Part shown: positions 865 to 57,300 of the stretch, piece after piece
Layout of the letters: every line of letters starts with the position of its first letter
Numbering within the stretch: the stretch's first letter is position 1
DNA from: Metarhizium brunneum
Lineage: Eukaryota > Ascomycota > Sordariomycetes > Hypocreales > Clavicipitaceae
Direction: 5' to 3'
DNA: 64,000 nucleotides
Assembly: GCF_013426205.1 (NCBI RefSeq)
Contig: NC_089423.1
Span: forward strand, 558,001-622,000
The notes under the pieces: generated by a model
Told to the model about the DNA's origin: nothing
Databases searched by the model: none
What the model saw: only the letters and a program-made list of their open reading frames with translations
Position numbers and translations under genes: made by a program

Positions 865-1340
865 TTTCTCACGTTGGGCAATGCGGACGGCACCGTCAAA
901 GTTTATTATACTACATGTGTAATTTTAAGCTCATTTAGTACAGAGTCTAGCTCGTATTCTCCTAGTCTGTAATCATTATTTTTTTTCTGCGTCTTTTACA
1001 CCTCATGTCCATACGCTGTGTGAATGACTAGCCTCGGCGCCGCCTCCTGGTCAGGCACTCCGAGCATTTGGTCGCACAAATGTAGGCCAATCAGAAATGC
1101 AGACGTCTCTTCTTCACTGCTCCATTCATCTCTACGACGAGTGTTAGTCACGCACCCAGGACATCTAGTAGCACAAGAATAGGCCAGTAATGGGTGCAGG
1201 CGTCTTCTCTTGACACATGGAAATTGTGCTCCACAAGCACCCTGGATTTACTATATAACAGGCGCGATGGCTGGTCTTCTGACCCGAATCTACCATCCCT
1301 TTACAATTCTTAAAGCTGATTTTGGGCAAAATCTCTATTA
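865..1340. other. intergenic spacer containing an imperfect direct repeat
   Basis: No open frame of interest. Bases 1070-1116 and 1167-1213 resemble each other (GCACAA, then TAGGCCA, then TGCAGRCGTCTTCTCTT-like blocks). This is a two-copy direct repeat about 97 bases apart, upstream of the 2EXR gene. A TATA-like TTACTATATAACA lies near 1248, about 90 bases before the start codon. Confidence 0.5.
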
Positions 1341-10014: not shown

Positions 10015-12000
10015 TTACGATCCCTTCGCCCTCTTGATAATGCTTGCTTTGAGCTTCTTCCACAAAACAGCATTGTCTTGATAGTATAGAGCCAGAGTCG
10101 ATAGATGGCCATCCAAGTAGCATTCCATGTCTCTCGAGTCTGCTGGAATGCCTAGCCTTGTCACTCTTGCAAACCGTCTTTCAATACTGTGTATAGGGCA
10201 GGATGTGACCATAAGACTTGTATAGGTGTCCTGTTGCAAATCGCGAGCGAGGGTCAGTAGACCTTTGCGGACAAGGGACGAACACTGGTCCAGGCCATCG
10301 AGGACTAGATATGCTCCACCCTGCTCCTCAATAGCTTCATGTATTGCTTTAATTATTGCCCGACTCCGGGGCTGTCTTTCAAGTCTCATGGAGCTTTCGA
10401 GGACCCCTTTAACTGACACCGGAATGGAAGCGCATTGGCTGAGAAATTGATGAAGGACCATGCGAAGCAGCTTTTGAACAGTCCGTTCTTTTTTCATTTG
10501 GGAGTTGCAGTATATGAATGCGACAGGTCGTCCCATGCCGGATTGAGCTCGTATATGCTCTATCGCGACTGATGCCAGTACAGTTTTGCCAGTGCCGGGA
10601 GTACCGGAACAGTAGAGGTTCCGGCAGACTCCCCGCAGCCACTTGGTAAACTCGGGAGACTCCAGAAACCACTGCCCAGTTCCTGGATGTCTCTGCTTAA
10701 GAATGTCCTTATGTTGGTCTTCGTAGGTAGGAGAAGACATGATCAAATCCAAAATGTCGTCACGTTCTTTACGTCGTTGTTCTATAAAGAGTTAATACAA
10801 TGAATTTTGCATAATACTGGGAGAGCTTCTCGAACCATTTAATAGACGCTCGAGGTCTTTATTTATAGACCCGACCTCTGCTGATGCTACATAGAAATAA
10901 TTGTCAGCGTTGGCACCTCCTCTCTCTGCTGCTGCTCTGGACTCACTCTGCTCCATAATTCTCAGTGCCTTCTTGGCCCGCACCACCTGGTTTGCGGGTA
11001 TGGTTTGGAGAAGCTCCTTGGCATATGCCGCTGCCGTTACCGCCGCATACTCTTTCCAGTCCTCATTCTTGTGGGTGTTGAAGTAGTCACAGATCCCTCG
11101 GATGAAAAGACACGGAAAATTGAGCATGAGCCCATCAGCCACCGTCTCAAAGCAAAGGATCCCGTGCTCCTGTCGGAGCTTCTCTCGAGTAGCACTATGC
11201 CGCATATCCTCCCTTACTGAGCCAATAACACCGTAGTGAATTACAGGATGCTCCGTGTCTCTGAGCTTTCGATGTACCAGTCGCTCCTTGTCGCACATTT
11301 TACAACCTATGCCTCCCCACTTGTGCTCGTAATTCGCTTCAAACAGCTGATCGTGCTCGTGGCCTGGATATTGGAACACCTCCATCATCGTTGGACGTGA
11401 CTTCACCATGTTCGAAATATGTTGACTGATTGCGTTCCTCACAGCCTCGTTTCGTGAGCGAAGTTCTGAGACTGCGGTTGTAAGTATCGCAGGCGGTTTG
11501 TAAAAAAAGCATCTTTGAGGAATTTCGCCCGTGTTGTATCTTAAAACGCCTCCTGTTGGTTGTGACAGCTCGGATATTTCCTTAATCCAAAACAATTCTC
11601 GCTTACCATGGTTGCCTTCCGAGTGACTGACTACTACATCCCCAAGCCGGATGTCTTTATTCGGATCGTCGCTTGGGGTGGCTGGCGCTCCGCCTCCAAT
11701 GCCGACCATCAAGCCAAAGCGGATATTCCGAAAGTGGTAGAGAAGGTAGTCTACTTCCCATGGACTCGTGGTTCCTCCTGTAAGGAAAGCAATTGCAACA
11801 TTATGCGGTCCGATCCGTCCCAAGGTATACCTACACTGAAAGTCCGCTGGGAGGCTAGGGTGCTCCTCATCTAACATTAGTTTAGACGCTACCCAGTCGG
11901 CTGGAGAAGCACAAATCAATGCTACAGTGTAATCCTCGTGTGTATAGTTCATTTTGGTGACGTACAAAACAGAGCGCGGCCGTGTATCGATGGTAGGCAC
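10015..12000 (-). CDS. NLR-like protein: purine-nucleoside-phosphorylase-type N-terminal domain plus NACHT, truncated
   Basis: Two frames (12000-10792 and 10752-10015) join through a 66-bp intron (10782-10847), giving KDLEQQRRKERDDILDLI across the junction. The N-terminal domain is of the PNP_UDP_1 type (YTVALICASPADW, GLMVGIGGGAP, DIRLGDVVVSHSEG, LFIRGICDYFNTHKN). NACHT follows with Walker A GTPGTGKT and Walker B YLVLDGLDQC. Fungal proteins of this layout normally continue into ankyrin, TPR or WD repeats and act in non-self recognition and programmed cell death. Here the frame ends at KRAKGS or a few residues later, and the C-terminal repeats are missing. The likely start is the ATG at 11952 (MNYTHEDYTVAL) or the upstream ATG at 12000. 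It could be a non-functional relic or a short NLR lacking a sensor. Confidence 0.8.
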
Positions 12001-12390
12001 TGTGGACGTTGGGAATGGTCTGATGAGAGCAGCTTCGCTTGGCCATGCGCATCAACACCGAGTTAAAGCTATATCCCGAGGTTAGCAGGACCAAAAACAA
12101 CAACAGTCGGAGTCCTTACGTGACGCGGTGGTGATTTCGTGGCTTTCACTGGAACGTTCTTCTTCAAATGACAGAGGAAAAGAAGGACCGTCAGTCCGCC
12201 CTCTTTAGTCCGAAAAACGCGGAGTAAAAAGATTTCCTAATGAGAGAGATAAAGATCGAGCATCATGACACTCGTAAGTTGGAAGCGCCGAGTTGGGGTC
12301 GGGAGGGTAAGGAAACAAGAACCGCAGGCCAGATGGCTGGGTGGGCGGATAGCTTTTATAATCACGCCTGCGTGCTACCTGTTATCCATT
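12001..12390. other. upstream region of the NLR gene
   Basis: About 390 bases between the NLR start and the 21-bp repeat array. It probably holds the NLR promoter and 5' UTR. No other feature was recognised. An open frame from the ATG at 12265 runs into the repeat array. Confidence 0.35.
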
Positions 12391-12537: not shown

Positions 12538-14420
12538 GCCACGACATGTAAGCTGACGCTGATCGTTTCCTTTTGGTCTCAACAAAGCGCCGACAGAACA
12601 AAGGCCTTGGGCCAACAACAGTTACACAACAACAAAGGAGGCATCACGAGGCCAGGGACCTTTAAGACCTCAGGGCAGATCATTTAAAGATTGCATCAAA
12701 TTGATCATGTTCGAGCAGATGCACTGCCCTTGTCATGCGATGTCACGCTGTACCACGCTCAAATCTCTCAAAGAGCGAACAGGAGCTTGATAAAAGACAA
12801 ACACATGGCCTAGTGTTCGGACCTGGGTGTGGTATGATGGAACAAGGCTTGGGCTGGTTTTGCGATCGGGATGGAACGGCCCTGTCTCCACTCGACCCAT
12901 ATGTGGCAGCAAACCTCAGCGTCTCAAGACAGGTAGCCAACACACATCAAAACGGTGCCGCGGTAGGAAGTCGACACAGTCGAGGATTCACTTACCGTGG
13001 TCTCCGTCGATCGACCATTTCAAGCTAATAGTTTTGCTAGCAGTCCGCTGAGTGCTCTACCGTCTACGGTGGAAACGAGGACACCGCCAACACGCCGCGA
13101 TACGACCACGATGGGTCCCTTGCATCTGCACGTGTCGCACCGAACAGAGCCTGGCCCTATTTCCAGGATTTCACAGCCTGTCCAGCGCAGGAGCTTGACC
13201 TGCAACAGCCCAAAAGCATCCACTCTGGCTCTAAATCACTGGCCTGCCCATGCCTCTCCCACCTCTCTGCCACCAGCTCTTGTTCAGCCGGGCAATCGGG
13301 CCGGTGGAATGTTCATCGTCACGACGTCGAGTCTCGGACTGTTCCATCGTAAATCGAGCCTCGGGCCGTCCCGTCCCTAGCGCCATCCCAAACTGGCAGT
13401 TTTTCGGTGCGCCCAGCGTTTGTGGGGACCTGGGTTCCAAACACACATAAAAAGTCAATAGCCTCTGCCTACGCCGTTTTCTTCGTGACAACACTTATGA
13501 ACAGTAACAATGTCGTCACTGACCTGCATACCAACCGCGCAGCCAACAGGATTCGCGCCCAGCGACAAAGGTGACAGAAACCGGGGTAATATGAGACACG
13601 AGCGGCTCCACGGCGGCATGCTGTGCAACAAAAGACGACATCGGAGACACACATATCAGCAGCAGATTGCCGAGCGGGACCACCCGCGCTGCAAATGCCT
13701 TGTGGCGCACCGCCTTGCCGTCTCAGTTTTCTCCCCTTTCGAGTCGGGGCTCCTCAGTCTCAACCAATCAGCTCATATCCACGGCCAGGGTAATGCATGT
13801 TTATAGCTCAGCAGCGCCGCTCGCCGGCCCGGCACTGAATGCCGCCAGAGACGAATGCCCCAGACGTGCGGCCTCGAATTCGCACATTCCATTATTCCAT
13901 CGTAAATGCCGTTTACACCAACTGGCATGTCAGCAGGGAGGCTTTTCCTGTGTCATCGCAGGATAGAGTAGACTGAAGACCAAAATGTGCTGGCCACAAG
14001 CCGCCTTGACAAGCCCGGCTTCACAGGATTCGAGATGTCCTGCTGTCTGGCGGCCGTGGCATAGTCACTGGACCGGAAATGGCAACTTTGACATATTAAC
14101 AGCTTATGCTATTCTGTATCCCTTGGTCTGATCTCTTCACAGGTATTTCAAAGTTATAAATCACGAGTTACTTATGATTTAATTATTTATTAGACCAACA
14201 GCTGGTACAAGTGTCGCAAATACTACATTTGTATAGAGCATGGTAATCCGATCACCGAGTAAACCTGAATAACTTGTTCGGGAAAATCGTTTTCTTACTG
14301 GCTAACGATTTTAAATAACCAACCAGTCTGGCCGCAAATAGCAGTCATGGTATTATAGACTAGTCATCTACATCTGCTCCGTCAACATCATCCGCCCATC
14401 AACCCCTACAACTTTGGTCT
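12538..14420. other. 1.9-kb spacer with repeat-like fragments
   Basis: No convincing gene. Bases about 12630-12680 share short blocks with the arms of the 5622-6422 element. The region 12735-13970 is GC-richer and has many overlapping short open frames on both strands, which is typical of non-coding DNA. The block 14100-14400 is AT-rich and includes the 3' flank of the aminopeptidase gene. Confidence 0.4.
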
Positions 14421-37853: not shown

Positions 37854-40800
37854 ATGGATGCTCCAAGCAAGGACGGCGCGTCATCGGGACGCCGTCAAAC
37901 ACCACTCACATCCCCGACCGACGCACGTCGCAACACAGACGACAACACAACACCGAGTCGCCCCGGCGATGGCTTCGGCGAGAGCTACCAGTCAACCGAA
38001 ACTGTGCGACACAGACCCGAAGGCGCGGGATATGGTACGTGTCAATCCTTTTTTTTTCTAATGTGCTGCTACTCGCCGCGACTTGACGTCCGCACATATG
38101 CTGACGCCGTCACCTGCAGGGTCCATAAACAACCCTCCCACCGCAAGCAGTAGCCAAACCGCGGCCGAGTCGTCGCAATCCCAAGACCGCCCCCAGTCGA
38201 AAGGAACGCCTCAGCGATCGGGTTTCAAACCTCCCCATAGAGTCAAGTCGTTTCCCCGGTTGCGAAAACCACCCCTGTCCAGGAGGACGTCTTCCAACAC
38301 TCCGCACCGTGGCGAAATCTTCTCTGCCGACGATGAGCCTCACGAGGTTGTGGCCGATGCTGCCGAGCGCCAGGGCTACTCCACTCGTCGACGGTCGCAA
38401 CAGGCTAGTACACCACTGTCACGCCTCCAGTCGTATCGAGCCGGCGGCGATGGAGAAGACGAAGAGGAAACTCGCGCCGGGGGCGTTCCCACCACGACGA
38501 CAGAGGAAGACGAGCCAGAGCATAGCGATGAGTTGCCACTGGAAGAGCACGTTGACTGTGATTCCGACGGCGAGATAAGCGAGGCCGAAAGCTTTACTCT
38601 CAAAGACAGACAGCAGGCAATAAACCAGACCCATCCATTTGGTATCAGAGTCTGGAAGCCTGCATTGTACAAGAAGGATCGGTCCATTCAAAAGTTTGCC
38701 CAGGCCGACATTCACTCCTCTCCTGGAGGCCGAGTGAGCAATTGGCTTCTGCTGTTCAACCTTGTCTGGACCCTTGTATTCGGATGGTGGATGGCCTTTT
38801 TTGCCGCTCTTGGAGCCATCGTTTGCTTACTTTTTGCAGCGGCCCCTAGCGGCAAAGAGTATGGACGAGTCTTGTGGGGGTTGGCCGGCTACCTGATTTA
38901 TCCCTTTGGCAAGTTTGTACGTCTGGAGAAGGACGAAGCCTACTCGCACGAAGACGGAGATGAAGGTCGAAGCATCTCCGAGTATGAGCAGTGGCAGAGC
39001 GGCGATTTAGAGTACGGCCGGCTTTTCTTTGGGCCCGACGGCAACCGATCCATTGTCGGGCGGTCAAGACAAAGTATCGATTCCGAGCACAGCGAAACTG
39101 ACAGCCTGCTGGGACGGGGTCGACGGGGCGCCTCTCGCGATATGCACCCTCGCATGAAGAGACGACGGCGCCTCTTTGGCAGGGGTGAGTGGAACATTGG
39201 CAGAGTCATCTTCTTCATATTCTTTTACTGCCTCATCTCGCCGGCCTTGATCGTCACCTCTGCCATTTGTTGGTTTCTCGTCTTCTGGATTCCCATGGGC
39301 AAGGTGACGATCCTCCTATTCGATCACCTCCGTCGACACCCACTCGCCTTGTCGTTTGAGACTCACATGGGCTACATGCGAAACGACGACGCGCCCGACT
39401 CGTCCATTTTGGTGTGCACCTACCGAGCCGTTGGCTCCAAGTATTGGAAGTACACCATTGACGGCACCAACATTTTTCTGATCAACCTCATGGCCGTCGT
39501 GTGTTTTGTGATTTTCGACTGGGCCGTCCTCGAGGGCGTACTTCACGTGGAGAGCTTCATTACATCCCCAGCTTTCCTGTTTACTGCCGGTCTGTTGTCC
39601 ATCATCCCCCTAGCTTATTTTATTGGCCAGGCGGTTGCATCCATATCAGCCCAGTCGTCCATGGGACTGGGCGCGGCCATCAATGCCTTCTTCGCCACGG
39701 TTGTTGAAGTGTTTCTCTACTGCGTTGCTCTCAGCCAGGGCAAGGGTCAGCTCGTGGAAGGCAGCATTGTCGGCAGCATATTCGCCGGTATCCTCTTCTT
39801 GCCTGGCATTTCCATGTGCTTTGGCGCCCTCAAGCGCAAGACGCAGAGATTCAATGCCCGGTCGGCTGGTGTCACATCCACCATGCTACTATTTGCCGTA
39901 GTGGGTGCCTTTGGCCCGACACTATTCTATCAAATCTATGGGACCCATGAGCTGAGCTGCACGGATTGCGAGGACTTGGAACCTGGTGGGAAAGATGGTC
40001 CTGGTAATGTTCGCGATTGTCGTCGCTGCTACTTCTCCCAGGCACCGGCTCTTGACGATCGGTTTTATCTCGAGGCCGTACGGCCGTACTGTTACCTGGC
40101 CGCTGCCATGCTCTTCTTCTCATACCTGATCGGACTGTGGTTCACGCTGCGAACCCACGCCGCCGTGATCTGGAACGCCGAAATCGAAGAGAAAAGGCAC
40201 GAGGAGCAACTCCAGGCATCTCTACTTCGGGCCTCACAGCCTTCGGCAGCCGAAACTACTGGCACGGATATCCGCGACTCCCATCTCTATAAACGCATTC
40301 TGGGCCAATCACTAAAGCATGTCGGGCTTCAACCTCGCCCCGAGGAAATGGCCCGCCAGGCATCTGCCCCAGACGCTGCCGCCAACGGCACGGCCGCAAC
40401 CCCACACGTAGTTCCTCCTAAGGGCAGCGATACGATTCGGTCTACCGTCAATGTGCCTGGCCTCAGCCAAGCGGACAACACTGCTCTCGCCCGGGAGGTT
40501 GCACACATTGCCGCCACTGCGGCCACGCTTGCGTCGAGGGATCGGGAAAGGCTGCGAAAGCTATCTTCTACCCCGGGTCAACACGGCACCGTCCGAACGC
40601 ATCAGAACCAGGCTGATGAAGCCACGGCAGCTGGTGAAACGGCAACCGTGCATGCTGGAGGCCATGGAGGCGGCGGCCACGATGCTCCAAACTGGGGGCG
40701 CGCAAAGAGTTCCATCATCCTCTTGGGAGCCACCGTACTGTATGCCGTCATTGCGGAAATTCTAGTAGACACGGTGGATGTTGTGTTGGAGAGTTTCTCG

Positions 40801-41355
40801 ATTGATCAAAAGTTCTTGGGTATCACGCTTTTTGCACTTGTTCCCAATACCACCGAGTTCCTGGTAAGTGGGCGCCTCGCTCAAAAGAAAAAGAAAGGTA
40901 TGTAATGCTAACAATCATCATGACAGAACGCCATCTCCTTTGCTATGAACGGAAACATTGCGCTGTCAATGGAAATCGGTTCCGCGTACGCCCTGCAAGT
41001 CTGCCTGCTGCAGATTCCTGCGCTCGTCTTGTTCTCAGCCGTGTACGCCCACATCCCCAGCGGCAGCGACCCGAGCCTGTACACCTTTTCTCTGCTGTTC
41101 CCGCAGTGGGACATGGTGACGGTCATCCTGTGCGTGTTCCTGCTGAGCTACGTCTACGGCGAGGGAAAGAGCAATTATTTCAAGGGCAGCATCTTGGTGC
41201 TGACGTATTTTGTGGTGGTGATTGGGTTCTACTTTAGCGGCTTTACGTCCGAGGTGATGGGCATTGAGCGGTTCGATGTCATGGGTGAAGATGGGAACTA
41301 CAAGAGTTTCAAGACGATTGGCCGCGGGTCGAGCGGGCGGGCGTATGGATTGTGA
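37854..41355 (+). CDS. VNX1: vacuolar/endomembrane cation:H+ antiporter of the CAX family (Vnx1-like)
   Basis: Three exons (37854-38034, 38120-40863, 40927-41355) with 85- and 63-bp introns give 1117 residues. A ~220-residue hydrophilic N-terminus is followed by two early membrane segments (WLLLFNLVWTLVFGWW and the next helix) and a soluble loop. The antiporter core has the two alpha repeats: GLGAAINAFFATVVEVFLY (first) and PNTTEFLNAISFAMNGN with SMEIGSAYALQV (second, spanning the exon 2/3 junction). The acidic residues needed for ion exchange are present. A long acidic/charged loop (about 700-900) separates the halves. Size and layout match yeast Vnx1, a vacuolar Na+/K+-H+ exchanger, rather than the short Vcx1 type. 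A TCXXC-like segment (CTDCEDLEPGG, then CRRCYF) sits in a loop and is unusual. The last coding exon ends right after SSGRAYGL. Confidence 0.9.
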
Positions 41356-45325: not shown

Positions 45326-45482
45326 TGTCTGTGTTGGACAGAACAGCGACAGAACAAGAGGTAAGATTTCCGTCTCAGTGTAAGCGTAGCTCAGTACGAC
45401 GGGCATAAAAAAAACCATAAAAGGCCATGGAATTCCTCAGATCCAAAGGCCCCTTCTTCACTGAAAACTACAACAAAGACCC
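45326..45482 (+). promoter_or_regulatory. conserved upstream region of Cys-rich gene 1
   Basis: The block 45326-45359 (TGTCTGTGTTGGACAGAACA and following) recurs upstream of gene 3 at 48056-48087 and partly at 51401. The block 45391-45482 (TCAGTACGACGGGC, an A-run, ATAAAAGGCCATGG, AAAGGCCCC, then AACAAAGACC) aligns with 46283-46372 upstream of gene 2. The ATAAAAGG piece is a plausible TATA box about 140 bases before the ATG. Confidence 0.55.
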
Positions 45483-45558: not shown

Positions 45559-45920
45559 ATGTCTGCGTATGTATCATTCTTCGCACACTAGAGAACGCAG
45601 CCGCTAACGAAAACAGACCTAGAAAGCTTCCATATAAAGTCGCAAATTCCCCAGAGGGAACCGAGTTACGGTGTCTAAATTGTCAACAGACGTTTCCAAC
45701 GGAACAGCAGGTCTGGGAGCATATCGAGAAATGCGTTTGCAAGGATTGCCATCAGATTGTCACGATTCCAACAATGATGGATTGTCCCTGCCTTCCCGAG
45801 CACCGTCCTTCGTGCTCGTTCTGTGGGGGCACCGGCAGACGGACGTGCCACAATGAGAAGCACAGCCACATACGTACTGCCTTGAGCATTCGAGAATATG
45901 AACTGAATATGTACCGTTGA
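45559..45920 (+). CDS. small Cys/His-rich zinc-finger-like protein, cluster member 1
   Basis: An 8-base first exon (ATG, one codon and two bases), a 50-bp phase-2 intron (45567-45616; donor GTATGT) and exon 45617-45920 give 103 residues. After a short lead the protein has CLNCQQTFPTEQQVWEHIEK followed by CVCKDC. This is the C-x2-C-x10-W-x-H-x3-C-x-C-x2-C core shared with three neighbours. It is followed by CPCLPEHRPSCSFCGGTG and CHNEKHSHIRT, a half DnaJ-type CxxCxGxG knuckle. Ten or more cysteines in about 100 residues suggest zinc binding. No signal peptide, so the protein is intracellular. I do not recognise a named family. The neighbours are a 196-residue paralogue 540 bases downstream and two more beyond. 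A role in nucleic-acid or protein binding is only a guess. Confidence 0.75.
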
Positions 45921-46282
45921 CACGACATATCGAGTGGGGTAGAGGGCACCACACAGTGGCTAGACCTACGGAAGCAAGGTCAAGAATCGCACCTTCGGAC
46001 ATGAATACCGGTGTAGCCGAACCTCTAGGTGTGGCAGCGTGGTGATGGCGGTTCAAGATGCCTTTGCATCCTCGACAACAAGTTCGATTTCGTTCTATCG
46101 AGCAAACCCCAAACAGAAGACGAAGACGCAAACATTTGAAGGAGCCATGTGAGAGAAGGACAGGAGTCACAGGAGGCACAGGGAAGGATATGAACGACAC
46201 ACGGAATTCTACCAATCAGTTGCTTTCTCGAATATATTCGCCATCTTCAGTGGTCATGTCTCAGTCATCCTGTGAATGTAGT

Positions 46283-46372
46283 TCAGTACGGCCGGCGTAA
46301 AAAAAAAACTATAAGAGGCATGGAATCTCCCACATTCAAAGGCCCCTTTTGTACGGCAGCTACGACAAAGAC
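46283..46372 (+). promoter_or_regulatory. conserved upstream region of Cys-rich gene 2
   Basis: Shares ordered blocks with 45391-45482 of gene 1: TTCAGTACG, GGCGTAAAAAAAAA, CTATAAGAGGCATGG, CAAAGGCCCC and CGACAAAGACC. The CTATAAGA piece is a likely TATA box. The following CTCGACCTCGACCTCGAC repeat (46373-46396) is a short 6-bp tandem run. Confidence 0.55.
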
Positions 46373-46460
46373 CTCGACCTCGACCTCGACCTCGAAAAAC
46401 AACAAAGACAAGACATAGGACGACTGTTGGAGAATTTCCAAGAGAGCCACCGAGAACAAA

Positions 46461-47110
46461 AGATGGCAACAAACGAAACCACACCAATGACGTCTGGGTA
46501 TGTATATCTATTCGGAACCTAGAAAGGGCTGCGGCTAATAACCAAAACCGACAGAGACATCAGAAAGGCTGATGAGGTTTGCAACATCTGCCGTGCAGAA
46601 TTGGGAGGAACCAAGACAATCCCAGCCCACATGTTCCACCAATTTACACAATTCCGGGGGCAACCGCCATGTTATTCATCCGCCTTGGAGCTCCCGGGGA
46701 TCCTCGGCCAGCCTCCGCCTCAGCGAAGGACAGACGACCTGGTCTACCACCTATATGTATGTGCCTGTTGTAACAAGGTGGCTTGTTATAACAATAACCA
46801 AATGTGGGGGCACGTAGCCAAGTGCCCCTGCCCTACTTGCAAACAACCATTGAGCCGTCTTGGTTCGGCCCCGGGCAGCGACAGTAATGAGCCTGCGCCT
46901 ACAGACTGTGGGCGCGTCGCTCGGGAATGTCAGGATCCCCTTCATGCGGGCATGGCCAGAATCATGCGCAAGGGCTATCAAGCACTTTTTCGCGATTCAC
47001 AGGCGTTGCAGATAGCTTCGAATATAGCCCGAAAAGAAGAACTTGACCGGTCTGCGGAGCCTTTGTTCGAAGCTGGGGATTTGCCTCGTCCACCACCGCG
47101 ACTACCATGA
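46461..47110 (+). CDS. Cys/His-rich zinc-finger-like protein, cluster member 2
   Basis: First exon 46461-46495 (11 codons plus two bases), intron 46496-46554 in phase 2 with donor GTATGT, then exon 46555-47110, giving 196 residues. The N-terminal finger reads CNICRAELGGTKTIPAHMFH, related to the C-x2-C-x12-H-x-C fingers of its neighbours but with Phe in place of the last Cys. The shared core is CACCNKVACYNNNQMWGHVA, then CPCPTC, here with 11 residues before the Trp. The second knuckle is weak (DCGRVARECQDPLH). The C-terminus is helical and charged and ends with a proline-rich PRPPPRLP. The function is unknown. It belongs to the same family as the genes at 45559, 48342 and 51758 and is the longest two-exon member. 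Confidence 0.75.
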
Positions 47111-48341
47111 AGACGACCAGACCTATTCTGTCGCGCGCCTTCAGCAGACGACAAACACGCCAATATTGAAAAGGGACAGGTTGGGACGGGGCGGGACGGG
47201 GCGGGAAAGAAGCACGAAATTCTACCGAAAAAATTACCTTCTCCAACATATTCACCAGTTTGAGGGTTACAATAAGCGCTTAGCCCCACGAATACACTCA
47301 TTTTTATAACCTGGTTATCCTGTCTCTATTTGTGCTACACAACACATGTAAACCCCGCCATGCGTTGATACTTGGCTTGCCATTACCGCCCAGTGAATAC
47401 ATGACCAGCCCCAGACCAACAAACGTCTTTTTTCACAAACACAGGACCACCGGAACGAGTCCAGGACTTGATGCTCCGACTAGTCGGTTGTGAGCTTTGG
47501 TTGTGAAGAGCTGATAATGTGCGGCGGCTTTTCTACACACGAAAAGTCGGGGAAGATTGTAGGACCCATATGATACCGATATCGTAGTTTGTACAAGGTG
47601 GCCTTATGTTTACCTATCAAACGACGTTATTTTTTTTAAAACTAATGATATATTTTGCTTGTATCCTATTAATTTATTGAATAGGCGTCGTCTACGCCCC
47701 TTGCTACTTGGATGGACTATATGCCATGTAGTTCATTACCTAGCGACAGGTGGGCCTTTCCCCCAAAGTCAAATTGATTATGGTCAGGCATATTTTAAAG
47801 GAATTTGACTAATCGCTTCAGATTAGTTGACTGCTCTTGAAAACCTTCGCCGGTATAACAGCTTGAGCTATGATTGCGGTGTGGTGACTTGCACGGGGAA
47901 CGCCGTGTACAGTCAGTTGTTGTTTGTGCATTGCTTTGAGCCACTTGCACAGCTATTTGGATAATCCAGGCCCTCAAACGTTTTTCATAGCTTCTTTGTC
48001 GGGTTCACGAGCTTCATGAGCTTCACGCTCTAGATTCAATGCACGCGGAGCTGTATGTCTCTGCTGGCCAGAACAGTCGCGGAACAAACAAACCTCACGC
48101 CTGAGACTATATTCACACCTAGCCCAATGTCTCTGTTGAGAAAAACATTCACAGAGAAAACAGACCGCATAATTGGACTTTCTACACGCAGAGGCCAGTA
48201 CTACCAGAATTCACCACGATTATAAAGAGCCATGGTGTCCCAGGTGTTTCACGCTGCCACAAAGACCAAGTCGTCTTCAAAAACCAGACACCACCACCTT
48301 CACTCGAGTCTCTTCAACGACAGCTTTACAAAAAGGCTAAA
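47111..48341. other. 1.2-kb spacer between cluster members 2 and 3
   Basis: No gene recognised. The tandem GGGACGGGGC run lies near 47190. An AT-richer part spans 47600-47700. The last 290 bases hold the gene 3 promoter, including the 48056-48087 block shared with gene 1 and TATAAAGAGCCATGG at 48220. Confidence 0.4.
48056..48234 (+). promoter_or_regulatory. conserved upstream region of Cys-rich gene 3
   Basis: TGTCTCTGCTGGCCAGAACA at 48056 corresponds to the gene 1 block at 45326. TATAAAGAGCCATGG at 48220-48234 corresponds to the TATA-CCATGG blocks of genes 1 and 2. It lies about 110-120 bases before the start codon. Confidence 0.5.
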
Positions 48342-48799
48342 ATGGCCGAGTATGTATCACCTTGATTTGAGTATAGACGAAATCTCCCACTAACAGAAGG
48401 GAATGCACCAGGCTCGTGTTTTGCCTGCACTGCCTTGAGGACGTGACGAAGATCGAGTACCATCGATGCCACTTATTCCAGACGAAGAAGACGCACCGTG
48501 GTCAAACGATGTTATTGTGTGTAAAATGCGACAAAGGATTTGGGAGTGAAGACGAGATTTGGAAGCACCTGCACACGTGTGTGTGCGAAAAATGCGAAAA
48601 GCCTCTCACGACAAAATCCTACACGGCCTGTAAATTCTTCGAGGCAAACTCTCGAGACAGACGGTGCAATACTTGTTCTGGCTGGGGATTCCTTCCCTGC
48701 GAATCGAAAGTCCACCGTCAAGTCTTTCGCCATTTTTACGAAAGGGCGTACATACCTGTTAAGAATATCATATACCTTGAGCGCTGGGATAAGATGTAA
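48342..48799 (+). CDS. Cys/His-rich zinc-finger-like protein, cluster member 3
   Basis: An 8-base first exon (ATGGCCGA), a 47-bp phase-2 intron (48350-48396; donor GTATGT) and exon 48397-48799 give 136 residues. The N-terminal finger CLHCLEDVTKIEYHRCHLF (C-x2-C-x9-H-x-C) precedes the family core CVKCDKGFGSEDEIWKHLHT then CVCEKC. A knuckle CNTCSGWGFLPC follows in the place of the CxxCxGTG knuckle of members 1 and 4, with Trp for Thr. The tail is basic and helical. No membrane segment or signal peptide is present. The function is unknown. The arrangement with gene 1 (same two-codon first exon, same intron phase) shows common descent. Confidence 0.78.
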
Positions 48800-49422
48800 A
48801 GTGCGACGGATGAGCGTTCCTTTTACAAATCTGTTAGCTTTGCCGTGTTATTGTTACAAGTGATAGAAGACATGTGTCTAGTGTTCTATAAAAAATACAA
48901 ACTTTTTTTTATTACCTGTATTGTTTTTTGCCCTTGATCTACTGGAAAAATGAAGCATTCTGCCAAAAGTGGAGGCCTCACACAATTGCGAGGTTTAATT
49001 TGGTAGATGCCTATTTTTCCTTTCAACATCTACACCATGTTTGCCATACGGTTAGGCCTCAGGTTTGCAAAACTCACCGACGTCTTGTGTATATAGAGTC
49101 TGCCCCATAAATACGCGTAAAGTGCAGATTCGCCGCAAATGTGCCTCTCTGTTCCGAGGGGACCCGACATCTATTTTTGGAGGTGCCACGAGTTCGGGAT
49201 GATGCGTTGTGGGGTACATGGCCCGTGCGCTTTTGACAGCATCACGTGAAATTTCTCATTTCGTTGAGCTCAACCACCTTCGCGACCACATCAACCATGA
49301 GGCTCCTTTGGAGCCACGCTGTTACACGCGCCAGACGGGCAACTAACCATCTACGAATACCGTTTCAGTGATGACCGGATCTTCAATGCTCATATGCCAC
49401 GACCGACAATACATCTCGACAG
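48800..49422. other. spacer, likely contains the missing 5' exon of the kinase
   Basis: About 620 bases. An ATG at 49297 (MRLLWSHAVTRARRATNHL) is a plausible start for the kinase downstream, but no good splice donor in the right phase joins it. Otherwise it is AT-rich at 48870-48960, probably the 3' flank of cluster member 3. Confidence 0.35.
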
Positions 49423-50930
49423 CCCGAGGCTGTTTATGTCCCTGAGGTGGACCTGGAAGATTTTGAGAGCTACACCATCGGTGGCTACCATCCCATCGTT
49501 ATTGGAGACACTTTTCAAAAAGGCCGATACAAGATTGCCCACAAGCTTGGCTTTGGTGGCTATTCTACAATTTGGCTGGCCCGAGACAACACATTGGATC
49601 GCTATGTCTCACTGAAGGTCTCGGTTGCAAGCGAATCGTCAAAAAATACCGAAGCAAATATCCTTGGCCAACTTCAGAGCATCGACACATTGCACCCAGG
49701 GCAGCGCTTCATCCCTCATTTACTAGATGCATTCTCCATACAGGGCCCAAACGGGCGACATACCTGCCTTGTACAAGAAGCGGCCGGCTGCAGCGTCGCT
49801 GCGTCCAAAGAAGACTCGGTAAACTTCATGTTTTCGACCGAGACCGCGAGGTCCATAGCAGCCCAGCTGATCATGGGTGTGGCGTATTTGCACTCACGAG
49901 GCATATGCCATGGAGGTAGGTTTAGCACCTAAACTCTTCACCGTGCTCTCCTTACCATAGCTCGCCAAATCCAGACTTGCATCTAAGAAATGTTCTATTT
50001 CGCGATCCACATGTCGGCCAACTCAGCCCTGACCTGCTCTGCAAGAGTTACCGTTTGGATCAAGCCGCTATTAGCCGAGTTGATGGCGCTGCTGTCGAAC
50101 CTCACGCGCCACCATATGCCGTCTATCCTATGCACATGAAAATGGCCGCCGACAAACTAAGAGAACCTATAATCACTATATCCGACTACGGAACATCTTT
50201 CATTCTGGCTACTGAGCGCTTCCCCGAGCTGCATACGCCACCACTCTTCCTGCCCCCGGAAGACTTTTTTCAAGAACCCATCACATTGGCGGCGGATGTA
50301 TGGACACTTGGCGTGATCTTGTACGAAGTTTTGGGTGAAAGGCCCCTCTTTGAAACATTTAATGGCGATCGAGACGATATTATCGCAGACATCATCAGCA
50401 CATTGGGGCGGCCACCCGCGCGTTGGTGGGATAAATGGGAGAATCGACACGAGTTTTTTAACCCAGTTGGCTCCTGGATTCATAACCTCGAACGAATCTA
50501 CACCCCTGTTTCCCGACCGTTGCATCAACGCATGTGGGACATGGGACGTGGCATGACGCCCGAGACCTGTGAATGGGATGTTGAAGGAGGGGAAATGCAG
50601 GCCTTGGAAAAGCTGCTGAGAAGTATGCTGGCGTATGAGCCTTTGGAACGGCCTACGGCCCAACAGCTGATGAGATCAGAGTACATGGAAATGGGCGATT
50701 CCAGCTTGCGAGCGGCAACTGGAGAGAAGCAAAAACGCATAGTGGCGACAGATTCTTGGCAAGTATCAGAGCCAAATAAACCCACTACCAAACGCCTGCC
50801 ACGTCGAGTCCCGCGCGACGAGCGCTTCCTCTGCGGCGCATCCGTTTGTTTCGGTTCATCAACGCTTCGACCGTCGTGGCCGTGGAAACCGTGTAGAATC
50901 GCACCATCATCTCCTAGAGAACTTGGTTAG
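49423..50930 (+). CDS. SRPK-like protein kinase (fungal expanded type), 5' exon not resolved
   Basis: Exons 49423-49915 and 49975-50930 around a 59-bp intron (donor GTAGGT) give at least 482 residues. The N-terminus has the hallmark ESYTIGGYHPIVIGDTF of SR-protein-kinase-like enzymes. The Gly-rich loop is LGFGGYSTIWLARD and the ATP lysine is in YVSLKVSVA. The catalytic loop reads HGDLHLRNVLF across the splice junction, with the Asp present but HRD changed to HGD. The metal-binding motif is DYG instead of DFG. ADVWTLGVILYEV is helix F. These variants are common in fungal SRPK expansions, so activity is possible. The tail after RIVATDSW is unlike relatives and may be a new terminus. The role is not known. 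True SRPKs phosphorylate RS domains. It lies inside the Cys-rich gene cluster. Confidence 0.75.
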
Positions 50931-51757
50931 CCAACCCGTAGCCGACTGCATAGCATCGAGCTATTGACTACCTTTATTGGCTAGACTGTCGGAGCTCACA
51001 CAGAGTCTGAGGAGCCTCGCCGCTCAATACCAGCTCGTATTTGGTAAAGAGTGCTCCAAGGCCATCTCCATCATCAGCAGGCGGCATTGTGACTATGCCT
51101 CCCACCATATGCGAAGATGAACTGTCCAGAGCTGTAACGCTGGACTCGTGACCTTTGCCTTTGTTGTTGTGTAACCTTTGTTCGCCCAACGCCCTTTGTT
51201 GCGAGCCCTTGCCACCTGCAGCTCCCACAATGCATACATAGTGTAGCACTCGTATTGGAGAGAACATTGGCAGAACAAGCCCCTTTGCTACAGACAAAAT
51301 GCACGCGTAGTTGCAGTGCATCTGTCAGATGAAGAAGTGAAACCACAAACCCTCATGGTTCACACCATGCAATGCGTGTGCTCAGTGTTTTTGTCGGATA
51401 TTGTCTGTGTTGGATGAGCAGTGAAAGCACAGGCCCTCGTAGCTCTGAACAAATACATGAGCCAGGTAGTTTGTCACATTTGCTGAACAGAGTAGAAACA
51501 GAACAGGCTCTTATGATGTGGGTTAGACGTGCGCAATGCACTACCTGTGCTGGATATAACAGCAGCAGAACACAGCATCATCTGTTATATCGAGTACATG
51601 ACTTGTTCAACGACGTCCTGCGGTATATGAAGAGCTCTCATTCCCCCAAATCCCGGGTTCTTTTTTTACATTCCCAACCGTGCGAGTTGCAACCTTTCAA
51701 CTTCCAAAATCGGCAAACACAACACCACTGCATGAGATTCTTATCCGCATTTACAGA
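50931..51757. other. spacer and promoter of Cys-rich gene 4
   Basis: No gene recognised. TTGTCTGTGTTGGA at 51401 matches the upstream block of gene 1, and GAACAGAGTAGAAACAGAAC at 51485 resembles the same block. The 5' leader from about 51640 is pyrimidine-rich. Confidence 0.4.
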
Positions 51758-52820
51758 ATGGAGGAAGAAAGGTATACATGTTATTCGCCTCACTACCAAG
51801 CAAAGCGCCTACTAATAAAAATAACGTGCCAGACGTCTGACTTGCAGACACTGTCAGGGGGACCTGACACAGCCGGGGAAGCAGGTTTCTCACATATGCA
51901 ACTTGCTAAATCACGACGAGGAAATACTTCCGAATGCGGAGGGCGACTCATCAGAGTATGTATCTCATTCACCCTAGTACATAGCGAAGCGCCTACTAAT
52001 GAAAAATAACGTGCTAGGCGTCTGACTTGCGGACACTGTCAGGGGGACCTGACACAGCCGGGGAGACAGGTTTCTCACATATGCAACTTGCTAAACCACG
52101 ACGAGGAAATATGTAAAAATCGAGAGAGCGACCCACCAAAGTATGTATCTCATTCATCTTACTACATAGAAAAGCGCCCACTAATAAAAAGTAACGTACT
52201 AGGGACGTGTTTTGCCAATTCTGTAATGAGAGCATGACACCGGAGCAGATTCGCGAACTACGCATCATAGAAGATGAAGATGACGACGTACAGTCAGACG
52301 AGGACGAGCAAATATGTCCGAATGGCGAGAACGAAAATTTACAGCCTCCGTCTTCTGGGAACGAACCATCAGAGTATGCATCTTATTCACCCTAGTACAA
52401 AGCAAAGCATTCACTAATACAAAGTAAAATGCTAGGGGATGTTATTGCTCGTACTGTTGGAAGCCCCCAAAAGGGGTAAAGACGAGAGGTGTCCATGCAT
52501 GCACCGTATTTCCCACCCAGCGTATGGAGGACGGGAGGAGCAGGCGAATATGTTGGAATTGCAAAAGACCTGCATCTGAGGAAAGGAGAATGTGGCGGCA
52601 CGTGCAGAAGTGCAGATGCAAAGTTTGCGGAAATAGGCTCGTTTGGCCTATTGATTACGATTGCGAGTGTCGCGGGGACAATTCTGAGTGCGAAAAGTGC
52701 AAGGGCACCGGCAAAGCCAAGTGTGACAAAGAATATCACAAAGATATTCACACGATGTATAAGAATGGATTGCAGAAAGCATGCGTCACCCGTGGAAAGG
52801 ACTTTGGGAAATTCCTGTAA
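51758..52820 (+). CDS. modular Cys/His-rich zinc-finger-like protein with tandem duplicated exon, cluster member 4
   Basis: Five exons (51758-51771, 51833-51955, 52018-52140, 52203-52373, 52436-52820) give 271 residues. All four introns are 61 or 62 bp, phase 2, with GTAT[GA][TC] donors and CTAAT branch sites. Exons 2 and 3 are each 123 bases and encode near-identical fingers (RLTCRHCQGDLTQPGKQVSH and RLTCGHCQGDLTQPGRQVSH, each followed by ICNLLNHDEE). Exon 4 encodes a weaker copy (CQFCNESMTPEQIRELRI) and an acidic linker. Exon 5 has another finger (CSYCWKPPKGVKTRGVHAC), the family core CWNCKRPASEERRMWRHVQ then CRCKVC, and the knuckle CEKCKGTGKAKC. Function is unknown. The modules suggest repeated zinc-binding units recruiting a partner. 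Confidence 0.8.
51833..52202 (+). repeat. tandem duplication of a 185-bp exon-plus-intron unit
   Basis: 51833-52017 and 52018-52202 are equal in length and nearly identical over the first ~90 exon bases (about 5 differences) and through most of the intron. The last ~30 exon bases differ strongly. The next unit (52203-52435) keeps the homologous 62-bp intron but has a diverged, longer exon. Confidence 0.85.
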
Positions 52821-53182: not shown

Positions 53183-54001
53183 CTACTCCCTATACAAGCC
53201 CTCCTCGTCAATCCACCTCGCAACCTCGGCCCCAACCAAGCCCTCCACCGCCGGCCCCCTCTCCCCAGTCCTCACCAGCTCCCTCACCCTCGAGCTGCTC
53301 ACCGCCCCCTCCACCCCGTCCACCAACTCAATCCTCCTCACCCACGCCGCATCACCACCGCTCCTGCCCAGCGTCCCCTCCAGACCAGCCACATACGCCG
53401 CCTGCTCCCCAGCCGTCCCCCACGCACCGTCCGGCCTCATCGTCACGCGCAGCCTCGCCCGCCGGAAGAACGGCCCCAGCGCGCTCCCCATCCCCCCGCT
53501 CCCCCCATAGTACCGCGGCTCAAAGATGCGCACCACCGTGTCGAACCCGCACAGGAACACCTGCTCCGCGCGCCCGTACCCCGCCGCGCCCTCCATCGCC
53601 GCCGCCTTGTCGTGGAAGTACGGCCTCGTCGTCACCGCCACGTCCACCTGCACCGGCGCCGCCGCCAGCTCCCGCGCCAGCGCCTCCATCATGCCGAGGC
53701 GCACCTCGAGCGGCGCCGGGGCGAGCGCCTTGTCGGCGTTGGTCACCGCCAGCAGGAGCACCAGCCGCGCGCGGGGGCCGGCCTGCCGCACCGCCGACGA
53801 GGCCATGGCCGCGTGCGCCCGCGTGGGCGGGTTGAAGCTCGAGTCGAGGACGATGAGGCTGTCCGGCGGCGGCGGAGGTGTTTCCGTGCGGGGGGGCACC
53901 GTGGACAGCACGCGGAAGGCGTCCCCGGACGCGGAGAAGGACCGGAGCGCGTTGGCGAACCGCGCGGCCGTCTGCTTGGTGGACATTAGCGCGTCGGGCA
54001 T
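53183..54001 (-). CDS. POF1: nicotinamide mononucleotide adenylyltransferase-like protein (Pof1 type)
   Basis: Frame of 272 codons from the ATG at 54001 (MPDALMSTKQTAARF). The open frame runs 50 codons further upstream, but those residues look like untranslated leader. The nucleotidyltransferase motif DSSFNPPTRAHAAM, the counterpart of (H/T)xGH, lies near residue 65. LVLLLAVTNADKAL follows, and the C-terminal SSSRVRELVR matches the ISSTxxR nucleotide-binding motif. The family joins NMN and ATP to make NAD+; yeast Pof1 is linked to NAD metabolism and protein quality control. The gene is extremely GC-rich with many Ala, Gly and Arg codons, which produces long false frames on all strands. The middle contains GGSGGMGSALG, a flexible insert. 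Confidence 0.8.
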   Translation of the reverse strand: MPDALMSTKQTAARFANALRSFSASGDAFRVLSTVPPRTETPPPPPDSLIVLDSSFNPPTRAHAAMASSAVRQAGPRARLVLLLAVTNADKALAPAPLEVRLGMMEALARELAAAPVQVDVAVTTRPYFHDKAAAMEGAAGYGRAEQVFLCGFDTVVRIFEPRYYGGSGGMGSALGPFFRRARLRVTMRPDGAWGTAGEQAAYVAGLEGTLGRSGGDAAWVRRIELVDGVEGAVSSSRVRELVRTGERGPAVEGLVGAEVARWIDEEGLYRE

Positions 54002-54304
54002 GGCGGGTGGTCTTTGTTCGGGGGAAGAAGTCAAGTGCGGTGCAGTGAGGTCGGGAGAGGTGAGTTGAGGTGACGTTGATGCCGGCCCCACTCTGGAACT
54101 GACTTGCGTGAGACTTGCCGGATTGGGACACATGCAGCCGGCCCGGCCCATTTACCAACACCGCCGAGCCGAGACGACGTTTCACGGGCCGCCCAACGTC
54201 ACCTGGGAACTTACATCAATTATTGCAAAAAAAGGAAGAGCCTTGTCTACTAATACTTTGTCATTCCGACATGTCAATTGATAAAGTAGACCGCTAAAAG
54301 TTGC
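54002..54304. other. spacer, Pof1-like promoter and Vps11 3' flank
   Basis: About 300 bases. Both neighbours are on the minus strand. The segment 54005-54190 is probably the 5' leader of the nucleotidyltransferase gene. No other feature was seen. Confidence 0.35.
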
Positions 54305-57300
54305 TCAAATATCATCGTCCTTATTCTGTCCGTCCATCACCCCCCTGCCAAACCACCGGGCCACCGTCCCGAACCGGTCTTCGCTGCCCTCCAGCTCAAT
54401 CTTGAACAGGTCGTGCTTCTCCGCCGCCTTCCGCTGCTCCTGCCTCATCTTGCGGATGAGATCATTCCCCCCCGCGCACTGCGGACACTCCACCTCGTCG
54501 CCCTCGCCACCACGGAGACACCGCTGGTGGAAGCTGTGCTTGCACAGAAAATGGACAGCCGGTAAATCCAGCCCCTGTCCACAGTCCGAGCACCGCGTTG
54601 CTTGGAAGACGGCCGGTTTAGAGCCTAAATCTGCAATTTCGGCTCGCCGCTTTTCCGTGTCCACGCGCAAGGTGTCGATTTGCCTGCGATTGTCTTGGAT
54701 TTCTTTGCGCTCGCGTGTAATCGTGTCGTGGAGGTAGGGTTTGATCATGCCCATTGTCGCCACGCCGCCGGCCGATGATTGGCCAACGAGGGTTTGGACC
54801 ACCTGCAGAGGAGCCATGAGCCCGTCTTTGTCGATTTTGGAGAGCACGTTGGCCAGTTCGTCCGGCCCTGCTTCTTCGAGGACTTTCGGGTCGGATGTGA
54901 GGTATGCGAGGGCTGCTGGGTATAATTGCGGTTCTTCGGGGCCGTATTTTCTCAGAGCCTTGATGGCGCCGCGCGTGTCCTTGGCAGACGTGTACGATCG
55001 GAAGATGTCAAAAAGCAGCCCGGCCTGCTCCTTGACCAAGACAGTGCCGTCGCGGAAATTGGACAAGTCTGACAGCAAGAGCACGTTGGAGCTTTCCATG
55101 GGTACGTGCTCTCCCTCGATCAGCTTCTTCGCCTTGCCCTCCCACTCCTCCCGATGGTGGCCCTTCTTCTCGCTGGCTTTATACAAATACATTTCAAACA
55201 AAGTGGTATACAAATCTGTTCGATCCGAAACCTTCAAATCTCCCTCCTCGAGACATGCTTCAAGAAACGTGATAAATTCATCTGGGTGGTCGATGAATGA
55301 AGAAAATGCAGTTCGCGGTGCCGGCACCGTGTACTTTGGCGGAGGATGGTCGTCTTCGCCAAGTTCGAGGGTGCCGTTGCTTGCCGGCTGCTTAATGTTA
55401 CTAGGCGTGCCCGGTGTTGCCGTTGGTCCCGAGGATGTGCCCATGTAGGGAAAGGGTAGATAATTAGTGAGGTTTTGCACTGCACTGGACGTGCCTGATG
55501 TGAGGCCTCCGGTCGATGATGTTTCACCAGGGATGGCAACCGTCGACTTTCTTGGGCGGTATTTCCCTGTATAGTAATCGATGAAGAGCTTCGTCGCCTC
55601 TTTGGGGCAGTTTTCGATGAGTACCCGAGCGTACTTTTGCATACATGGATATGCCTACGAAACAAGTCAGTCGCCACGCTGATAGTGTGTCCGGGCGCGA
55701 ACCTACCACTTCAGGATCTTGCCGCCAGATGTAGCCCAGCGCTTCACCGTAGCTCTTGGAGTCCTCAATCAGAATATCGGCCACAAGCTCCGTCTCCCCA
55801 TGCCGTTTGGCGAGATAGGCGGCCTGCTCGTAGTATCCCCCTTGTCGACACATGACAATGGCCGTGTCCAGGTCAAACTTCAAGTCTCCTGGTGACCTGA
55901 TAAATTTTTCTAGCTTGGCAATGTCCTTTAACTTTGCGTAACAATTCAGGAGCAATGTTGTGTGGTCAGCCGTAGCTTTTCTGTGCTCGTGTAATTGTTC
56001 AAGGTACTGAATGAGATTATGTATTCGTTGGGTATCAAGAAACTGTCCGGTCAGCACGTTCACGTCTTTTTTTTCACGTTCAATTCATTCGCAGGCAAAA
56101 ACAAAACATACTTTGCGAATAACCTGCGATGGCTCAGTGGTATCGATAGCCCGAATATACTGCATCATGGCTCCGTCGTAATCAGCCTTTTGATATAAAT
56201 GATCACCAAACTTGCGATAAATGATGCTCTGCTGCTGACTATCCATTCCGGAGCCTTGTGCAAGCTCAATAGCAAGAGGAAACATGTTGCGTTGGTACAG
56301 CATCTCTAACCTCTGCTGCAACGGCTTTTCATGATACCGATAAATCTGCAAAACATCAGCCATGGACACGGGATCATGCAGTGCGGTACAGGCTCACCTT
56401 GCCCTCCTCCGACATAGTATACAAGTCTCCCCAAACATCAAAGATGAACCTCACAGGGGACATGATTGTTTCGGAGTGCGCAATGACTCGCAGATCTGGC
56501 TCCAGCAGAACAAACATTGTAGCGTTAAACAAGTCGTCGTTACCGCCGCCCCCGAATCGCCGTCGCATACTATCCGGATCCCGTCCATTGACCCCCGTCG
56601 GCAAACACTTGAGCGCCACGTAATTCTCATACATGGCAATCAAGGTCTTGGGAGCTTCATACGCCTTTGGCGGCCCTCGACCATCCAACGAATATGTGTA
56701 GATGGCATCATCCCTCGCCACCACCACATCGCCCGTCTCTTTATCCAACGTCATGCACCCCCACGCACAGCCGCTATCCTCCACAGTCTTGGGAGGAAGC
56801 CCCTGACCCTTCCTAGACAACCCCAACTTGACTATCCGCGTAGTCGTGGAGATGAACAACGTCGTTAGCTTCTCGTCCGTCGCAAGCTGCACACCGGTGA
56901 CTGGTTCCTCAGACTCAAACACTATGCGCTGCTTGGTGCCAAGGTCATGGATGAGATCGCCCCGAATAACCGTCACAGCACCGTTACCAAAACCGACCGC
57001 AATCTGGGACAGGTCGTCGGAGGCAGCAAAAGCTGAAATCGGAAATTGCCGTCGGCCGTTATTTATGGTCAGGGTGCTCAGACAGGTTGGCATGTTGGTC
57101 TTTTTGACGAGCTTATCCAGCGCCCAGGCTTTAAGAACGGGCTCACTGCTCAGGTCCTCGGCGACAGTGATGAGCAGGCTCGTCCCCTCGACTTGGCGCA
57201 TGTGCGTGACTCGTCCGGCATCGTGGGCCTGGAATGTCCTAACTGCTTTCCAGCTCTTGCTGATGATGCTGACGGATCCATCGCTGCCACCAAGAAAGAG

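Follow-up and report, generated by a model that had tools for sequence, protein, structure and literature searches.

The question raised by a 64,000-nucleotide stretch of chromosome 2 of Metarhizium brunneum (chr2:558001-622000, hereafter the window) is what kind of proteins are encoded by four small, cysteine- and histidine-rich genes on its forward strand. We refer to these as m1 to m4 in their order along the window, and positions are window positions unless a chromosome is named. The family to which they belong is not confined to this cluster and comprises at least seven predicted genes in M. brunneum, the copies elsewhere being termed C7a, C7b, and C2x. The reading that we favour combines an old, divergent multi-zinc family, a module of three zinc sites, and a role as an intracellular, zinc-stabilised binding adaptor, and we give these parts jointly about an even chance of being right.

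Kinship and gene structure of the seven genes

The seven genes are listed below with the basis of each model in brackets; P0001 to P0004 are protein records from other assemblies.

45559..45920, forward strand: m1, exons 45559-45566 and 45617-45920, phase-2 intron 45567-45616, 103 residues (splice model, 12-ligand pattern, stop codon)
46463..47110, forward strand: m2, exons 46463-46497 and 46555-47110, intron 46498-46554, 196 residues (splice model, fragments P0002-P0004)
48342..48799, forward strand: m3, exons 48342-48349 and 48412-48799, intron 48350-48411 (alternative AG 48396), 131 residues (splice model, P0001)
51758..52820, forward strand: m4, exons 51758-51771, 51833-51955, 52018-52140, 52203-52373, and 52436-52820, 271 residues (splice model, direct repeats)
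About chr7:2019235-2019750, reverse strand: C7a (gene model; distant match of the genome search with m1)
chr7:2020557-2020973, reverse strand: C7b, 0.8 kb from C7a (gene model; found by a list of open reading frames and a regular-expression scan)
chr2:412629-413245, forward strand: C2x (gene model; match of the genome search with C7a)

As the first-pass annotation of this DNA had proposed, all four cluster frames are present and can plausibly be spliced. The introns are of phase 2 in each case. Its start coordinates hold for m1, m3, and m4, while the ATG of m2 lies at 46463 and not at 46461. Likewise, the lengths of 103, 196, and 271 residues stand for m1, m2, and m4, and for m3 we prefer 131 to 136 residues. 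The m3 acceptor at 48411 is preferred because the AG at 48396, which would yield the longer protein, follows the CTAAC branch site too closely, within a few bases. The predicted splice models of m1-m4 contain seven introns of 50-62 nt, every one in phase 2 and of the form GTAT....CTAA[CT]...AG. A short first exon (8-35 nt) followed by a phase-2 first intron recurs in 7/7 genes, including the three outside the cluster.

All seven genes also encode the core C-x2-C-x11..13-H-x3-C-x-C-x2-C. The form ending in W-x-H-x3-C-x-C-x2-C, pointed out earlier as common to the cluster, is present in 4/4 cluster genes, and the tryptophan of W-x-H is found in 0/3 genes elsewhere. The core pattern occurs four times in the six-frame translation of the window and not once in any of 30 first-order Markov copies, and when the residues of each of the seven proteins were shuffled, it arose in 0-3 of 20,000 cases per protein.

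Whole-genome searches connect most of the genes. The search with m1 found m4 (E 1e-9), m3 found m1 (E 1.3e-6), and m4 found m3 (E 3e-7). m1 also led to C7a on chromosome 7 (E 0.009), whose frame has the whole pattern including CARCPGTGEKEC; C7a led to C2x on chromosome 2 (E 0.004), and C2x found m3 (E 4e-6). The search with C7b reached C7a at E 0.11 only. With m2 as the query, the genome returned m2 itself and one chance match but no family member, and m2 was not among the returns for m1, m3, or m4. A family consensus recovered six of the seven members, reached m2 at E 0.011 only, and revealed no eighth member; having been written from the members, it is not independent proof. Its one further match, on chromosome 4, was dismissed as chance (E 1.4, the reverse-strand frame there lacking the pattern). 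Two other candidates were also set aside: a locus on chromosome 5 (L022), which has just a short C2H2-like stretch in common with m1 (E 0.087), and L024, a chance match.

The search-based links are weakest for m2 and C7b, and some of the other E-values are weak too. We accept their kinship because of the sum of the evidence, namely the gene structure found in 7/7, the common pattern, the match of C2x to m3, and the flanking DNA of C7a and C7b described below. m2 is counted as a member because it has the core, the gene structure, the intron, and the promoter in common with the others. Kinship is strong for m1, m3, m4, C7a, and C2x and weaker for m2 and C7b.

The predicted zinc-site module and the possible role of the proteins

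A full pattern of 12 ligands, with the C-x-C and a knuckle closed by C-x4-H, is found in 4/7 genes (m1, m4, C7a, and C2x). Counted as [C C H C], [C C C C], and [C C C H], these ligands would make up three zinc sites per module. The module would comprise some 65-75 residues, in which a C2H2-like C-C-H-C finger is followed by a fused CxxC...CxC site and by the CxxCxGTG knuckle with its closing C-x4-H. m1 has the C2HC finger, the CxxC/CxC, and a CxxCxGTG-x3-C-x4-H knuckle, without an N-terminal finger. An N-terminal finger of the C2HC or C2H2 type (N-finger) is added in 6/7 genes. In m3, an N-finger and the core finger accompany a CxC without the second Cys and a CxxCxGWG knuckle. m2 retains the core finger and CxC-x2-C, with degenerate second and third sites and a long tail, and both m2 and C7b lack more ligands than m3. 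m4 contains four N-finger-type exons. The finger of exon 4 is degenerate, lacking the H-x-C and accompanied by an acidic stretch, and exon 5 encodes an N-finger together with the full three-site module. The knuckle is distributed as first described, with CxxCxGTG in m1 and m4, Trp in place of Thr in m3, and a trace in m2. The N-terminal C-x2-C...H-x-C finger ascribed to m2, m3, and m4 is present in m3 and in m4 other than exon 4, but m2 has C-x2-C-x12-H-x2-H.

The ligand positions appear to be under constraint. Over seven comparisons with fragments from other assemblies, in which the three rows for m2 depend on one another, as do the two for C2x, Cys or His changed at 1/98 positions compared with 120/747 for the other residues (Fisher p 4e-6). 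The picture of retained ligand positions in an otherwise drifting sequence is borne out. The constraint also bears on whether some members are pseudogenes, that is, decaying or unexpressed copies, as might be supposed from the missing ligands of sites 2 and 3 in m2 and C7b and the missing H-x-C in m4 exon 4. However, open frames and usable splice sites exist in 7/7 genes, and the Cys and His residues of m2 are unchanged at 39/39 compared positions across its three, non-independent fragments. We therefore consider decay quite improbable.

Structure prediction tentatively suggests a finger-like fold. With a 14-row alignment, the model of m4 exon 5 reached a mean predicted local distance difference test (pLDDT) score of 65.6, with block means of 66-81 over residues 21-110; the other four models remained at 52.5-54.7. 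The m4 exon 5 model shows a strand at residues 35-38 ahead of C39-x2-C42, a short strand near 45, and a helix at 49-58 bearing H55, so that the predicted order of elements is that of a classical zinc finger. A further helix (99-110, with H101) lies behind the knuckle. Structural matches of the models to Kaiso fingers and to spliceosomal and ribosomal chains are weak, and weak rows for WW domains and SH2 were disregarded.

These proteins could be nucleic-acid-binding regulators, in which DNA or RNA would be read by the C2H2-like core finger, either unaided or together with the N-finger, while the remaining module buttresses it. The top sequence matches among solved structures in the PDB are C2H2 DNA-binding fingers, aligned on the core, and the weak structural matches just mentioned as well as the mild basicity of 6/7 proteins (pI 8.0-9.2) favour such a role. 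It is opposed by the absence of any zf-C2H2 domain over threshold (0/7), by a final ligand that is Cys rather than His, by the presence of a single core finger, and by the acidity of m4 (pI 5.7). A classical DNA-binding array is not what the seven sequences suggest, because TGEKP-type linkers are absent, the spacers measure 13-17 residues, and the proteins are only mildly basic. Nucleic-acid binding is a serious alternative, to which we assign roughly one chance in four.

In the adaptor reading that we favour, the fingers would offer a rapidly evolving surface for binding another macromolecule. This partner would more probably be a protein than a particular DNA site, and m4 would gain avidity through its extra fingers. 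The proteins are presumably intracellular, because the first cysteine is residue 7-9 in 5/7 of them.

Age, exon duplication, and flanking DNA

The genes look like an old, fast-diverging family that could not be placed clearly in any of the family libraries searched. Identity is about 17-36% between paralogues, compared with 70-94% for the closest fragments from other assemblies (P0001 and m3, for example, are 82% identical). A small tree likewise has paralogue branches of about 0.9-1.9 versus about 0.03-0.3 for the fragments, its deep nodes having supports of 0.0-0.74. Because the paralogues are far less identical than the outside fragments, the gene duplications look older than the split from the outside relatives. 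The family had been taken as recently expanded, but the identity gap and the branch lengths reject a recent burst of gene duplication, and the only near-copies are exons 2 and 3 of m4.

Seven distinct records were obtained from 5.8 billion proteins: P0001 (closest to m3), P0002-P0004 (m2), P0006 (C7a), and P0007-P0008 (the C-terminal part of C2x). These searches used m3 and alignments as queries, m1, m4, and C7b entering as alignment rows only, and returned no record closest to any of the latter three; the database is apparently poor in spliced genes. P0001 continues upstream through the m3 intron stretch, where 15/17 codons read alike and the other two are stops in m3. This stretch is conserved, and in the source of P0001 it may be coding sequence or an intron. 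No relative was detected in viral contigs scanned with C7a and m3 or in prokaryote genomes scanned with m2, and literature searches outside subscription journals brought up no title or abstract opening that describes the family. The family may be lineage-specific, as labelled earlier, which fits what was found.

The N-finger exon of m4, bounded by phase-2 introns, has been multiplied through tandem duplication of exon and intron together. Direct-repeat analysis revealed tandem exon-plus-intron units at a spacing of 185 nt with 86% identity, the next spacing being 233 nt, and exons 2 and 3 are identical at 106/123 nt. The repeated finger exons are separated by homologous introns:

51772..52435, forward strand: the four m4 introns (61-62 nt, each in phase 2), any two of them identical at 46-53 of 62 columns

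The likeness extends to the other introns of the cluster: among the seven introns of m1-m4, 17/21 pairs were matched by at most 3/300 shuffles, in which the splice ends were held fixed and the branch site was not. The introns of C7a and C7b also resemble each other. No likeness past the splice signals was seen between introns of different clusters.

Upstream DNA is shared as well. A TATA-like stretch in front of m1 has a counterpart in front of m2:

45407..45455, forward strand: putative promoter stretch of m1, homologous to 46300-46348 (76%)
46300..46348, forward strand: matching stretch upstream of m2, in repeat family D5 with the m1 stretch

The local alignment score for the DNA upstream of m1 and m2 is 119 versus a shuffle maximum of 35. 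The likeness is weaker for m1 and m4 (50 vs 31, or 42 vs 35 in a second run), and for m1 and m3 the upstream score lies below its shuffle maximum. The flanking DNA of C7a and C7b is 67-76% identical over 160-437 nt. Gapped local alignments give higher, inflated identities than end-to-end alignments. Aligned end-to-end, C7a and C7b are identical at 271/389 upstream positions (70%), 48/69 in the intron (70%), 176/389 in exon 2 (45%), and 209/375 in the 3' flank (56%). The corresponding values for m1 and m2 are 142/238 (60%), 32/50 (64%), 126/304 in the exon (41%), and 157/309 (51%), a weaker contrast between exon and flank.

The proportion of synonymous differences (pS) is 0.68 in both pairs over a 38-codon block, from which one m2 codon was dropped for frame. 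Even at synonymous sites, the coding exons seem older than the adjacent upstream DNA and intron. An explanation by positive selection alone is unsupported, since it would not saturate the synonymous sites of the exon beside upstream DNA and introns of 60-70% identity. Exon exchange, flank conversion with exon diversity kept, or constraint on the flanks could have caused the contrast. Cys codons, identical at 6/7 and 5/6 positions in the two tandem pairs, lean the opposite way but are too few to weigh.

The contrast would suit diversity cassettes, in which recombination would be anchored in the common promoter, the short exon 1, the phase-2 intron, and the 3' flank. The divergent finger exons would be swapped, duplicated (as in m4), or kept different, remaining saturated even at synonymous sites, and the flanks would be homogenised. 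Such a system would resemble self-recognition or arms-race gene families, where coding exons are kept different beside homogenised flanks, and we put it forward only tentatively, as improbable though worth stating. Slightly more doubtful still is the reading of these loci as conflict or self-recognition genes proper, with coding exons held different and the surrounding DNA homogenised as in an arms race. Upstream DNA and introns more conserved than the coding exon in two tandem pairs, and the position of the cluster among conserved genes, favour it. However, the pattern comes from two pairs and few codons, the difference is modest in m1/m2, and flank constraint or poor codon alignment could contribute to it. 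If this contrast between exon and flank holds up in populations, it would suggest that the family of this insect-infecting fungus is diversifying under unusual pressure or exchanging exons.

The neighbouring genes in the window are as follows.

38062-40902: Na/Ca-exchanger-like frame, a conserved gene flanking the cluster
49447..50930, forward strand: protein kinase between m3 and m4, not a family member; Pkinase over cut-off in both of its open frames, between which splice signals suggest an intron at 49916-49960; start codon provisional
53186-54151, reverse strand: nucleotidyltransferase-like frame past the cluster
54308-55654, reverse strand: frame for the C-terminal part of VPS11, past the cluster

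A 43-nt stretch upstream of m4 (51158-51200) recurs at 12597-12638 (88%) and at locus L001 (86%), and is perhaps a short dispersed repeat. Elsewhere in the window, a frame at 10018-10791 (reverse strand) matches NPHP3_N and weakly NACHT, with a long frame just upstream (10795-12051), and looks like a fungal NLR-type gene; a frame at 1320-2696 (forward strand) matches the 2EXR family.

Comparison with known families

The first-pass annotation could not name a zinc-finger family for these proteins, and library searches agree: none of the seven genes has a Pfam match that reaches the cut-off of the model, and the best NCBIfam match over 14 rows has E 0.021. Below the cut-offs, we compared a seven-row Pfam scan (six genes and P0001, m2 being left out) and a separate scan of 14 rows.

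UBZ fingers have the same C-C-H-C ligand set, and the proteins could accordingly be ubiquitin-binding adaptors acting through a C-x2-C-x12-H-x3-C finger. zf_UBZ matches below cut-off (consensus E 0.11; 1/7 rows at E 1.3), and a profile search of the PDB lists NEMO finger chains (E 0.14 and 0.16). According to PMC4370504, FAAP20-type ubiquitin contacts are made by an Asp at position -2 and an Ala at position +2 relative to the ligand His, and other UBZ binding modes are named there. The family lacks these contacts, with the Asp in 0/7 and the Ala in 1/7 (m2), so that the ubiquitin-type adaptor suggested at first is not upheld and FAAP20-type binding is unlikely, the test being confined to that mode. 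Among the alternatives considered, we find a UBZ-type adaptor the least probable.

The most recurrent weak Pfam match is zf-C2H2 (PF00096/PF13894), in 3/7 rows. The family resembles it in the C-x2-C-x12/13-H-x3 spacing and possibly in the predicted strand-strand-helix order of the core, but has Cys as the fourth ligand and two more sites fused directly behind. The consensus scores at best 15.2 bits against a cut-off of 27 and 15.0 against 25.2, and the members score lower where shown. The MYST C2HC finger (PF17772) matches C7a (E 0.013, 15.6 bits against a cut-off of 28.8), for which a weak zinc ribbon is the sole other model listed; however, PF17772 appears in only 1/7 and 2/14 rows, and no acetyltransferase domain is reported.

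Scattered sub-threshold matches, in at most two rows each, were rejected for PF18868 (zf-C2H2_3rep), PF17026 (zf-RRPl_C4), PF25112 (AtTam37), and PF24560 (OTU1). PF18868 matches along m3 (E 0.065, 14.4 bits) and P0001 (E 0.0064, 17.6 bits; cut-off 30.8), but in 2/14 rows only, and its genome search found one place and none of the family genes. The genome search with PF17026 found no match anywhere, controls included, and is hence weakly informative; that with PF03107 found one unrelated place.

The CxxCxGxG knuckle recalls anti-TRAP (PF15777; 1/7 rows, E about 0.0019-0.004; C2x 17.6 bits, cut-off 32), its nearest weak score, and the DnaJ central domain (PF00684; 2/14 rows, E 0.0064, but 0/7 rows), the DnaJ model being absent from the Pfam listings of all seven genes. 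Anti-TRAP carries two CXXCXGXG motifs according to PMC2896485. It acts through binding of the protein TRAP, which we count in favour of the adaptor reading. Unlike the paired CxxCxGxG motifs of anti-TRAP and DnaJ, which share zinc, the knuckle here is single and closed by C and H, one per protein in m1, m3, m4, C7a, and C2x. The family is a variant of the zinc-finger protein and not a new principle, and in the annotation of Metarhizium its compact module in set order (C2HC finger, CxxC/CxC, GTG knuckle) can be treated as an additional type of zinc finger.

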